Below are positions 31,723-35,182 of a DNA stretch of 41,217 bases, in pieces. How positions within the stretch are numbered: the first letter of the stretch is position 1; each line of letters starts with the position of its first letter. Made by a program: the position numbers and the translations under genes. The notes under the pieces are model-generated. The model saw only the letters and a list, made by a program, of their open reading frames with translations. It searched no databases and had not been told where the DNA came from. Source of the stretch: Okeania hirsuta (GTDB lineage: Bacteria; Cyanobacteriota; Cyanobacteriia; Cyanobacteriales; Microcoleaceae). The stretch spans positions 1-41,217 of the forward strand of contig NZ_RCBY01000048.1 in the NCBI RefSeq assembly GCF_003838195.1, read 5' to 3'.

Positions 31723-32412
31723 ATGACTATCGACTTATATTATTGGCCTACTCCTAATGGCTGGAAAATTTCTATTATGTTAGAAGAAACAGAAACCCCT
31801 TATAACTTAATTCCAGTTAATATTACCGCCGGAGACCAATTTCAGCCAGAATATTTGAAAATTAGCCCTAACAATAAAATGCCAGCCATTGTTGACCCTA
31901 ATGGACCCAATGGCAACCCTATTTCTATCTTCGAGTCAGGAGCTATTTTGCTCTATTTAGCTGAAAAAACAAGTCGCTTTATTCCCGATAACCCAAGCGA
32001 TCGCTACACAGTAATTCAGTGGCTAATGTTTCAAATGGGAGGTCTTGGCCCAATGTTAGGGCAAGCTGATCATTTTCGTCAATATGCACCCGAAAAAATT
32101 CCCTATGCAATTGAAAGATACACCAATGAAGCATCACGTTTATATGGGGTATTAAATCAACAATTATCTCAAGTAGAATATGTGGCGGGAGATTATTCTA
32201 TTGCTGATATGGCAATATATCCTTGGATAGTACCCCACGAAAAGCAAGGGCAAAATTTATCAGACTTTCCTCATTTAAAGCGATGGTTTGAAACTATTAG
32301 TCAGCGACCTACAGTAAGTCGTGGTTTAGCAGTTTTAAGTGAGAGTCGGACAAAGAAGTTTGATGAAAAAGCCAGGGAAAATCTTTTCGGTACTCGTCAG
32401 TTTCAGCAGTAA
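31723..32412 (+). CDS. Glutathione S-transferase-like protein, nu class (YfcG/YghU type)
   Basis: The 229-aa protein has an N-terminal thioredoxin-like domain (1-85; YYWPTPNGWKISIMLEE with the TPNG-K motif typical of the nu class, KMPAIVD cis-Pro site near 54, FESGAILLYLAE near 70) and a C-terminal helical domain (90-215; GPMLGQADHF near 108, VAGDYSIADMAIYPWI near 150 with the N-capping box). Nu-class members bind glutathione and act as disulfide-bond reductases or peroxidases. Length is normal. It is a stand-alone gene in repeat-rich surroundings, so context gives no further hint. The start ATG is chosen because it gives the normal N-terminus; the ribosome binding site is weak. Confidence 0.92.
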   Translation: MTIDLYYWPTPNGWKISIMLEETETPYNLIPVNITAGDQFQPEYLKISPNNKMPAIVDPNGPNGNPISIFESGAILLYLAEKTSRFIPDNPSDRYTVIQWLMFQMGGLGPMLGQADHFRQYAPEKIPYAIERYTNEASRLYGVLNQQLSQVEYVAGDYSIADMAIYPWIVPHEKQGQNLSDFPHLKRWFETISQRPTVSRGLAVLSESRTKKFDEKARENLFGTRQFQQ

Positions 32413-32564
32413 TTAATAGCTATTTAACTATTAAGTAGAAAATGGTAAATTTTGGGCGCTATTTATCAAATTGTAAATTAGCTCAAAAGTTTATATTAAA
32501 TGGCTTTAGGAGTTTTTTGATTAAATATACAGTGTCTTTTTTTTAGTCTGCTCTACTTAGTTTT

Positions 32565-32596
32565 GGTAGGGTAGGTAAAAATTTACTTACCCTACC
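32565..32596. repeat. Strong 15-bp hairpin
   Basis: GGTAGGGTAGGTAAA and TTTACTTACCCTACC pair at 14 of 15 positions around a two-base loop, with TTTT on the left flank and GTTTT to the right. It lies 150 bp past the GST stop. It could terminate transcription in either direction or be a small palindromic repeat. Confidence 0.7.
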
Positions 32597-32659
32597 TAAC
32601 CTAGTTTTGATAGTAGAATTTGGCACGGTATTATGTAATATTTTCACCAGTTCAATTCT

Positions 32660-32767
32660 ATGGCTAGCTTAAAAGGAGAAGTATTTATTTTTGAGGTAGT
32701 TACTATCAACAACTCTGGCAAAATAATCTACCGCACCTCTACCAGTGCCAGGCAAAAAAGACCATAA
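32660..32767 (+). pseudogene. Possible remnant of an SUMF1-type protein
   Basis: A 35-codon frame reads MASLKGEVFIFEVVTINNSG and then KIIYRTSTSARQ. It resembles the linker just before the formylglycine-generating-enzyme-like domain of many cyanobacterial proteins (FEVVTVN-x-x-G-x-I). The domain itself is absent. The resemblance is from memory and short, so this could be coincidence. Confidence 0.3.
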
Positions 32768-33453
32768 GCAAGTTTCTAATACAGATTTCCAGCCACTTAC
32801 CACAAAACAGTCAATCTATCAATCTACTGAAAAATGAGGAGAGAAAAATTAGTCATTCATCGTCACATAAATTCAGACGATCGCCTCTAAAAACAACGAC
32901 ACGATAGGTATTTGCAGCCTCAAAATTCTTTTAAGCAATACTAACCCTTGGATTTTTATACCATTTAGAGTATCACACAACCGAGTAAAAGCGCTAAAAA
33001 TATTGAAACTTCGTTAGCTGATTGGGAAAACTTTTCTCCGATTTTGTCAGAGGTTGATGACAAAATTAAAAAATTTCAAACTAAAAGACTGAAATTGATA
33101 ACTAAAACTTACCTAATAATTAATAATTAGAGTTTGCGTATGGAAACCCTATTTAAAGTCCCTACAGATTATTTCGTTTACGGTTTGTTCGGGAGCAAGT
33201 AATGAAAGGGGTATTCATAATTCTGATGTTGATTACGGTTAGTCCAAATATCTTAATTCTGATGCTGATTCACCAACGCCAAAACAAATAAGCCGAAAAA
33301 TCCAGACCTCCATCAACATAGATGCGTTTTCTCAAAGGTTGTCTGAATTCTTTTCCAAAACTTCCCTCCGCTGCAAAAAAAAATCATCCTCAATAATAGA
33401 AATATTGCCCGATCGTTCCCTATGAGTATAGGTAATCAAAATATTGAACCTTG

Positions 33454-33731
33454 TCATTTTCTGAAGCTCAAAAAAATTAGAGGATAATGAGGTTGCATCC
33501 CCTCAAAAACCGCGATAGGATATACATATTGGCAGTTGTTCGCCCAGGGCAAACGCATCTTATTTTGCCGTTCCCTATATGTAGTGTTTATTTGATTTTA
33601 TAGACACTATATGTTGAAAGTCTATTGTCAACAAGCGCAATAAAACCCGGTTTATTGATAATTACCCCTAGTTTATTGACGAGATGCGTTTGCCCTGGTT
33701 GTTCGCCCCTACGCATGACTTTTTATTCAAC
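33454..33731 (+). repeat. Direct repeat Z, copy 1 (interrupted)
   Basis: TCATTTTCTGAAGCTCAAAA through ATGAGGTTGCAT to GCATGACTTTTTATTCAAC, about 115 bp once the inserted element and one target copy are removed. It matches 33969-34082, with a reading frame of 22 codons in common. Confidence 0.88.
33545..33697. mobile_element. 153-bp MITE with perfect terminal repeats and target duplication
   Basis: The ends CAGGGCAAACGCATCT (33545-33560) and AGATGCGTTTGCCCTG (33682-33697) are perfect 16-bp inverted repeats. The 10-mer GTTGTTCGCC is present directly on both sides (33535-33544 and 33698-33707). The related repeat at 33969-34082 has no insertion at the corresponding place and so shows the empty site. 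The inside contains an imperfect palindrome (ATATGTAGTG...CACTATAT) and no gene. A larger element with the same ends elsewhere in the genome would be the source of transposase. Confidence 0.92.
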
Positions 33732-33968
33732 AAAAAAAAGTGAAACAGATTTTTATTTGCTCTCAAAAATGCCTCCTGACCAAAAAATAAGGTCTCAAGC
33801 CTCCCCTTTCAATGGGATGAAAAAAAATCAAGTTCAATATTTCAATTCCGATGCTTTCCTGTGGAATGCTCCGCAAACAGGCAGAGGTACTGATAACTGA
33901 TAACTGAAATGACCCTGAATCAGCAGATAAAGCGCAGGACTCCTTCTTGAGTTTAAGTTGCACTTTTT

Positions 33969-34082
33969 CATTTTCTGAAGCTCAAAAAATTAGAGAATAA
34001 TGAGGTTGCATCTTCTCAAAAATCGTGATAAGGTATATAAAGTTTTAGTCACTCGTCCCTTCGCATGACTTTTTATTCAACC
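33969..34082 (+). repeat. Direct repeat Z, copy 2 (uninterrupted)
   Basis: Second copy of repeat Z. It carries an uninterrupted 22-codon frame (34000-34068) that begins ATGAGGTTGCAT and ends TTCGCATGA. See the related copy for comparison. Confidence 0.88.
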
Positions 34083-34183
34083 ACAACCCAGGAAATATAA
34101 ATTATATATGTAAGGTTAGAACATATCAAAAGCTCAAAACTCAGACAAAGCAAGCTTATTCCTTCGCACACCTTAAGCTCAAA

Positions 34184-35182
34184 TCAAACAGGCAAATCCT
34201 TCCTCGGCTTAAACCTCTCAACCTCCCGTAACTTCTGATAAATCTCCAACTCCTCCTGACTAGGCTCCTTCGGAGTCACAATCTTAATCTCCACCAACTG
34301 GTCTCCACGCTCACCCCTCCCATCAGGATACCCCTTACTCGCAAGCCGTAAACGTTGACCAGAAAAAACCCCCGCCGGCAACTTCATCTTCACCCAACCA
34401 TCCAAAGTAGGCACCTCAATATCCCCACCCAAAACGGCCTCCACAGGAGTAATAGGCAACTCACAAAAAATATCCGGTCCATCCAACTGATAAAAATCAT
34501 GAGGAGCGATCGTAATCTTCAAATACAAATCTCCCCCACCAATACCCTGATTTTTCAGACGAATTCTTTGACCACTAACCATAGCCATCGGCATATTCAC
34601 CTCTATCGAACGCCCATCCTCCAAACGTATTTTTTCAACCCCTCCCACATAAGCCTTTTCCAAAGGTAAAGTTAATCTAGCCTCAATATCCTTTTTTACT
34701 TCCCGCTCTGTTGCCTTATAAGTATTCTTTTTCTGACCAGAACGATAAACATTAGAAGTCTGAGTTTTTGGAATTGTCGATTCAACTGGAGTTCTAACTT
34801 CACGGCGACGACCTAATAGTTGGTCTACAAAAGTATTAAAATCTGAAAAGTCACTAACATCTGAATTTTTTTCATTTTTTCGCCCATTTTCATCACGATT
34901 ATCCCAATTCCTAAAATCAGGAACTCGTATCCCCACCCTACCCCCAATTCCTTTAGGTTTCCAATATCGAATAAACTGATCGTATTCTGTTCGTTTTTCT
35001 ATATCTGATAAAATATCATAAGCTTCATTAATATCTTTAAATTTTTCTTCTGACTCTTTATCACCAGGATTTACATCTGGATGAAACTGTCGTGCCAGTC
35101 TCCTATATGCTTTCTTAATTTCATCCACCGAAGCATCTTTAGAAACATCTAAAATCTGATAATAATTCCGAAAATTTTGCAT
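34184..35182 (-). CDS. dnaJ: DnaJ-type co-chaperone (J domain plus C-terminal domains, no zinc finger)
   Basis: The 332-aa protein stimulates the ATPase of an Hsp70 and delivers substrates. The J domain fills residues 1-70 (YYQILDVSKDAS, HPDVNPGD with the essential HPD tripeptide near 37-39, FKDINEAYDILSD). A charged linker follows (about 75-165, with the DFNTFVDQLLGRRRE segment), then the substrate-binding C-terminal domains (about 166-320; LTLPLEKAYVGGVEKIRL, GGDLYLKI, PDGRGERGDQLV). There are no CxxCxGxG repeats, so it is of the CbpA-like class. It lies downstream of dnaK on the same strand with 239 bp between, so it is probably the partner of that DnaK, expressed either from the dnaK promoter or its own. 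Confidence 0.95.
   Translation of the reverse strand: MQNFRNYYQILDVSKDASVDEIKKAYRRLARQFHPDVNPGDKESEEKFKDINEAYDILSDIEKRTEYDQFIRYWKPKGIGGRVGIRVPDFRNWDNRDENGRKNEKNSDVSDFSDFNTFVDQLLGRRREVRTPVESTIPKTQTSNVYRSGQKKNTYKATEREVKKDIEARLTLPLEKAYVGGVEKIRLEDGRSIEVNMPMAMVSGQRIRLKNQGIGGGDLYLKITIAPHDFYQLDGPDIFCELPITPVEAVLGGDIEVPTLDGWVKMKLPAGVFSGQRLRLASKGYPDGRGERGDQLVEIKIVTPKEPSQEELEIYQKLREVERFKPRKDLPV

Follow-up and report, generated by a model that had tools for sequence, protein, structure and literature searches.

The window analysed here, a stretch of 41,217 nucleotides from the draft genome of the cyanobacterium Okeania hirsuta, contains a 153-bp MITE situated between the convergent 3' ends of a glutathione S-transferase (GST) gene and a dnaJ-type gene, with an hsp70 gene lying past the latter (Table 1). 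MITEs are short elements, measuring a few hundred base pairs or less, which do not possess a transposase gene; the ORF list of the window includes no ORF of at least 100 aa that overlaps the one described here. As the element is located outside both neighbouring genes, past their 3' ends, it is expected to be without effect on either of them. It splits one unit of a multicopy repeat, which we term repeat Y, and a second unit of this repeat, uninterrupted by the element, is found closer to dnaJ. Other features of the same intergenic region are a 22-bp inverted repeat downstream of the GST gene (32558-32603; 86% complementary, 2-base loop), which was not scored as a terminator, and another abundant intergenic repeat beside the MITE (33780-33907), which recurs at many places in each of four congeners among the matches listed.

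Table 1. Positions of the features discussed, in the window unless a contig is named
Feature	Position	Strand	Basis or remark
MITE, 153 bp	33545..33697	+	sequence, ORF list and ten genome copies; edges fixed by differently flanked copies
Left terminal inverted repeat, CAGGGCAAACGCATCT	33545..33560	+	repeat search and copy comparison
Right terminal inverted repeat, exact complement of left	33682..33697	-	repeat search and copy comparison
Target duplication GTTGTTCGCC, left copy	33535..33544	+	single copy at relatives' orthologous site
Target duplication GTTGTTCGCC, right copy	33698..33707	+	single copy at relatives' orthologous site
Repeat Y, host unit, split by MITE	33444..33781	+	sister unit and units at orthologous loci
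Repeat Y, second, empty unit (sister repeat), diverged paralogue	33958..34081	+	103/125 aligned positions identical
GST gene	31723..32412	+	left neighbour, 3' end towards MITE
dnaJ-type gene, J domain and DnaJ_C	34184..35182	-	right neighbour, 3' end towards MITE
Resident ISAs1-type IS, 1878 bp	C50:2477-4354		ends CAGGGAAAACGCATCT on both sides; intact 379-aa DDE transposase

The two ends of the element are complementary at 16 of 16 bp, and the flanking target duplication is identical at all 10 bp. An inverted-repeat search pairs 17 bp at 100% (33544-33560 with 33682-33698); the 17th pair is a flanking C/G, and the true end is 16 bp long, because copies with different flanks stop at this point. 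Among the 7 inverted pairs listed for the interval 32400-34800, this is the sole one with 100% complementarity. A preliminary description of this DNA had proposed a 153-bp MITE whose 16-bp ends and 10-bp target duplication are both free of mismatches, and all of these attributes are borne out by the sequence. The element is short, lacks a transposase gene, has inverted ends and a target duplication, is dispersed in multiple copies and shares its ends with an IS; it is hence a clear and cleanly documented example of a well-known kind of element.

Ten full copies of the MITE are present on 9 contigs of the 8.79 Mb assembly (716 contigs), which answers the suggestion of the preliminary description to look for others in the genome. 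They are 98.7-100% identical and differ in their flanks: 5 of the ten, including the window copy, are identical to each other, four differ from the window copy by one substitution (two of these sharing the same change) and the copy on C22 by two. Ten near-identical copies with differing flanks on nine contigs exclude a chance resemblance. Perfect 10-bp duplications flank 7/10 copies (C423, C16, C211, C109, C164, C60 and the first C80 copy), the C22 copy has a duplication matching at 8/10 positions, and the duplication is absent from the remaining two, namely C357 and the second C80 copy. The two C80 copies lie in tandem with a single copy of the target between them, near the contig end (L007 1502-1817); this arrangement is probably an assembly fault, given the proximity of the contig end and the exact match of the first 67 bp of the outer flank to that of C60. 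A further pairing of ends spanning 217 bp (L005) was spurious and was dropped. ORF lists with a threshold of 60 aa were made around the copies on C16, C211, C109 and C164: ORFs of 66-100 aa enter the element at C211 and C109, and none of at least 60 aa does so at C16 or C164.

Evidence regarding the age of the insertion came from four other species of Okeania, in all of which the orthologous dnaJ/GST region is without a match to the MITE. In each of these the left anchor and the dnaJ side are placed on one contig (G001, L121; G002, L123; G003, L120; G004, L122), and the window flanks, joined with one target copy omitted, align across the junction with 90%, 84%, 87% and 89% identity, respectively. 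The G002 alignment has one gap base at the target, and the left and right flanks, when matched separately to G001, have 11 bp in common there, i.e. the 10-bp target plus one base. As the number of repeat units varies among the species, the absence of the element from the region as a whole is better established than the orthology of individual units. The empty-site comparison covered the window copy and those on C16 and C22. The C16 copy has an empty counterpart in G003, the only one of the four congeners in which its two flanks were found adjacent; they match there at 93 and 97% and share a 10-bp overlap. The flanks of the C22 copy consist of repeat sequence that is partially matched at many places, none of which was assigned as the orthologous site.

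Full-length copies of the MITE found elsewhere in the congeners are at most 91% identical to the window copy. For this reason the burst of near-identical copies in the present genome is judged from these alignments to postdate the separation from the congeners sampled. The preliminary description had regarded the insertion as recent, and the near-identical copies, the intact duplications and the empty orthologous region in 4/4 congeners support this. It had further proposed a comparison with related strains, which was made here with genomes of other species; since all four are empty, the relatives do not uniformly carry the element between diverged flanks, the pattern it had named as contrary to recency. 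Its own evidence for an empty site was the sister repeat in the window, which it placed 430 bp away. A unit lacking the element does exist there, but it is a diverged paralogue rather than a pre-insertion allele, and the spacing is instead 513 bp by the left-flank match and 350 bp by the right-flank match. The orthologous sites of the relatives are thus the better empty-site evidence.

The likely mover of these elements is an 1878-bp IS of the ISAs1 family on C50, whose transposase is recovered by the model NF033564 with 433.6 bits (cut-off 70) and by PF13808 and PF01609 above their cut-offs. This is the only complete assembled copy of the resident IS; of the 6 ISAs1 matches in the genome, the 5 others are incomplete or disrupted. 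Edges of the same IS were detected on six further contigs (C312, C357, C679, C703, C212 and C182), three of which (C312, C357 and C679) end exactly 55 bp inside it, a pattern expected from a collapsed multicopy IS. The C50 copy has no target duplication (3/10 positions). When the edges on C182 and C703 are paired a 10-bp duplication, GCAGACTAGC, becomes apparent, the pairing being inferred and the two contigs matching the IS over only 687 and 327 bp, and a similarly inferred pairing of the edges on C357 and C212 yields a second, GCCGTAGAAG. The two ends of the IS start with CAGGG and are identical over their first 35 bp, which is longer than the published range for the family: a paper on Frankia gives ISAs1 ends of 14-22 bp that start with CAGGG, along with a 10-bp repeat (PMC11946415).

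The preliminary description had recommended a search for an IS with ends like those of the MITE, and the resident IS provides one, its ends matching at 15/16 bp (20/22 on the left). The sole mismatch within the 16 bp is at position 6, where the IS has A and the MITE C. The similarity covers only 22 bp from one end and 16 bp from the opposite one, and the interior of the MITE is unrelated to the IS. Derivation of the MITE from the resident IS by simple deletion was considered and rejected, because position 6 differs and the ends alone match. The own genome yielded no intact ISAs1 element whose ends are exactly those of the MITE. The MITE would most likely have been moved by the resident ISAs1-type transposase or a close relative of it.

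Other genomes contain further elements of both kinds. An ISAs1 remnant of 600 bp in G003 (L118 684-1283), retaining transposase residues 1-88, carries on its left side the 16-bp end sequence of the MITE without any mismatch. A 1341-bp ISAs1-type element of G043 with the ends CAGGGTAAACGCATCA is flanked by a duplication matching at 10/10 positions at L086 and 8/10 at L101. Duplications were absent from the two-ended ISAs1-type elements at L085 and L115 (4/10 each) and the remnants at L111 and L118 (3/10 each), and the scan found no such ends in relatives with about 31-33% transposase identity. The MITE itself was searched for in 59 genomes, the own one included, of which 15 match; in five of these (G002, G011, G029, G034 and G049) the match is confined to 22-29 bp of an end. 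The MITE family itself is old, with related copies at about 70-91% identity both within the genus and in a second genus of the taxonomic family. Some single MITEs of the relatives (L076, L077 and L079) combine one GGGC end with one GGGA end, whereby the difference at position 6 seems to be tolerated.

A second group of MITEs, of 125-127 bp and with like ends, was found in the own genome, the congeners, another genus of the family and an order-level relative (G049); its loci include L015 1404-1529, L016 616-741, L079, L159, L162, L065 and L080. In the 17 rows compiled for this group the duplication is 10/10 in 9, 9/10 in 3 and absent in 3, and the other two show 11-bp duplications when read by eye. 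The 11-bp duplications of L015, L056, L064 and L070 score low on account of the one-base shift and stand outside the 10/10 counts. L070 (152-557, on G001 C653) is 406 bp long, related to the MITE and enlarged by additional sequence inside it, probably through a nested insertion.

Our preferred reading is that the MITE was recently pasted into the repeat Y unit, which we hold with high confidence, and that an ISAs1-family DDE transposase acting in trans is the most likely mover. Such a transposase would bind the 16-bp ends, move the element and insert it at a target whose two strands are cleaved with a 10-bp stagger, whereupon repair by the host would generate the 10-bp duplication. Another, unseen transposase that suits the end CAGGGCAAACGCATCTTATTTTG could in principle have performed the same role. 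The left end of the MITE continues as TTATTTTG and the resident IS ends as AATTTTTTTGAC, their interiors are unrelated, and the extension TATTTTG is common to many of the 126-bp MITEs. Moreover, in the four MITE-holding congeners the 379-aa transposase finds either no match or one that is partial or diverged, and a helper may hence be missing from the sample. Against this, CAGGG-type ends close to those of the MITE are recognisable on ISAs1 elements spanning about 43-100% transposase identity (L018, L085, L086, L087, L096, L103 and L118), and the mixed GGGC/GGGA MITEs of the relatives suggest that one base is tolerated; an unseen transposase is therefore rather unlikely.

The age of the family and its spread, at about 70-91% identity, through the genus and another genus of the family might suggest that the MITE is ancestral at this locus. 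This would need precise loss in all four sampled congeners, and the five identical copies in the own genome, set against a ceiling of 91% for full-length congeneric ones, make it highly improbable. We regard insertion by the assembler as equally improbable: the genome is a draft of 716 contigs and the C80 tandem resembles such a fault, but the window copy is located within a contig of 41 kb and is bracketed by a 10-bp duplication of its own, and a chance misjoin would not produce two matching target copies where the orthologous locus is otherwise collinear. There is hardly more reason to view the element as a functional hairpin, acting as an RNA or regulatory element, instead of a selfish insertion. 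Its strand folds very strongly (-53.7 kcal/mol, z -8.08), but an element made up of inverted repeats would be expected to fold strongly, and this one is absent here from four relatives. In addition, a scan with Rfam at gathering thresholds returned no match to it, a terminator scan gave 0 terminator-like sites, and the 9 promoter-like sites of a promoter scan were not above chance (6.8, sd 3.0, in shuffles).

The 20-mer core of repeat Y, CGCATGACTTTTTATTCAAC, occurs 65 times in the own genome with at most 2 mismatches (control 0) and 121-157 times in the four congeners, often in clusters of units a few hundred base pairs apart. We surveyed 61 MITE and IS insertion loci of the own genome and the four congeners (35 two-ended, 26 one-ended) against a repeat Y profile, itself partly built from the window copy; a single end at L137 (C709), apparently a chance match, was left out of this survey. 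The junction falls at the same 10-bp site of repeat Y, with E of 1e-5 or better, in 6 of the 61 loci, which are partly non-independent as some are two edges of one IS or are common to several species. These six are C423, C22 and C357 of the own genome, C20 of G004, and C574 and C116 of G001, the orientation of the C22 copy within repeat Y being opposite to that at C423. Two weak matches, own C182 (E 6e-4) and G003 C57b (2e-4), are 4-5 bases short, and their extension would reach the same base, while strong matches at G003 C101, own C150 and G001 C362 have the junction elsewhere, 9-14 bases past the matched stretch.

Further recurrent sites were read by eye. In six of the 61 loci (own C80, C50 and C223, G002 C101, G004 C72 and G001 C33) the last bases of the flank are GAGTTTAGAC with one mismatch or none, and in three they are TCTCCTACCC. 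The sequence CTGGAGTTTAGAC, which occurs 67 times in the five genomes versus 5 for a reversed control, looks from its context like the terminal repeat of another transposon family. In Trichodesmium erythraeum (L115 1256-3078) and also at L104, an ISAs1-type element lies flush between inverted CTGGAGTTTAGAC and GTCTAAACCCCAG, which look like the terminal repeats of another transposon; its transposase is in pieces, TTAGTAG is repeated outside it, and it is possibly chimeric. A simple sequence consensus for the 10-bp target was rejected, as 24 target duplications, not all independent and made symmetric, hold at most 0.21 bit, at outer positions; any preference would accordingly reside in particular repeats and not in a simple motif. 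The probability of chance alone placing 3 of the 9 insertions of the own genome at a single base of a repeat present in 65 copies is about 1e-12, a post hoc estimate that assumes 2.6 Mb of tolerant sequence and ignores repeats that carried the MITE along.

Several precedents resemble parts of this system. In its ends starting with CAGGG, 16-bp inverted repeats and 10-bp duplication the MITE is like the ISAs1 family as outlined in the Frankia paper, and unlike the IS of that family it is devoid of a transposase; the same paper notes that three of four ISAs1 insertions in Frankia fell in one locus (PMC11946415). A study of the filamentous cyanobacterium Anabaena sp. 90 describes 147 complete or partial MITEs of 77-541 bp, mostly intergenic, alongside a long ISAs1-family IS, ISAsp2, of 1627 bp (PMC3542288). 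The co-occurrence of short MITEs and ISAs1-family IS is thus common to both organisms, but the authors of that study saw no evident similarity of the Anabaena MITE ends to IS ends (PMC3542288), whereas here the ends match a resident IS. Repeated entry of a mobile element into dispersed intergenic repeats recalls the IS elements described as targeting REP sequences; the present case differs in the ISAs1-type system, in the repeat used and in the apparent terminal repeat of another transposon (PMC1525189).

Searches of open-access full text for CAGGGCAAACGCATCT, GCAAACGCATCT and AGATGCGTTTGCCC returned only GCAAACGCATCT, in unrelated work with titles on a human virus and lung cancer, and the open-access literature on MITEs of Trichodesmium and Okeania offered nothing related by title. 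Nezha is another short non-autonomous element of cyanobacteria, an active MITE (Zhou et al. 2008). It has inverted ends of 24 bp and direct repeats of 8 bp in a total of 134 bp, and its mover is a full-length IS. The window MITE resembles it in general plan and differs from it in its 153 bp, 16-bp ends and 10-bp duplication.

We tentatively suggest, at somewhat less than even confidence, that the ISAs1-type IS and MITEs of Okeania and Trichodesmium may home to 10-bp sites in repeats, i.e. the repeat Y base, GAGTTTAGAC at CTGGAGTTTAGAC, and TCTCCTACCC, such repeats serving as safe landing pads on which nested, possibly chimeric transposons are built. The repeated arrival of these elements at one and the same base within other repeats furnishes a natural data set for the target choice of ISAs1 elements. 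More generally, the locus presents a well-resolved case of recent MITE transposition, in which a single genus supplies identical copies and intact duplications together with unoccupied orthologous sites and a plausible helper IS, and it links a set of Okeania and Trichodesmium MITEs to ISAs1-type transposases.
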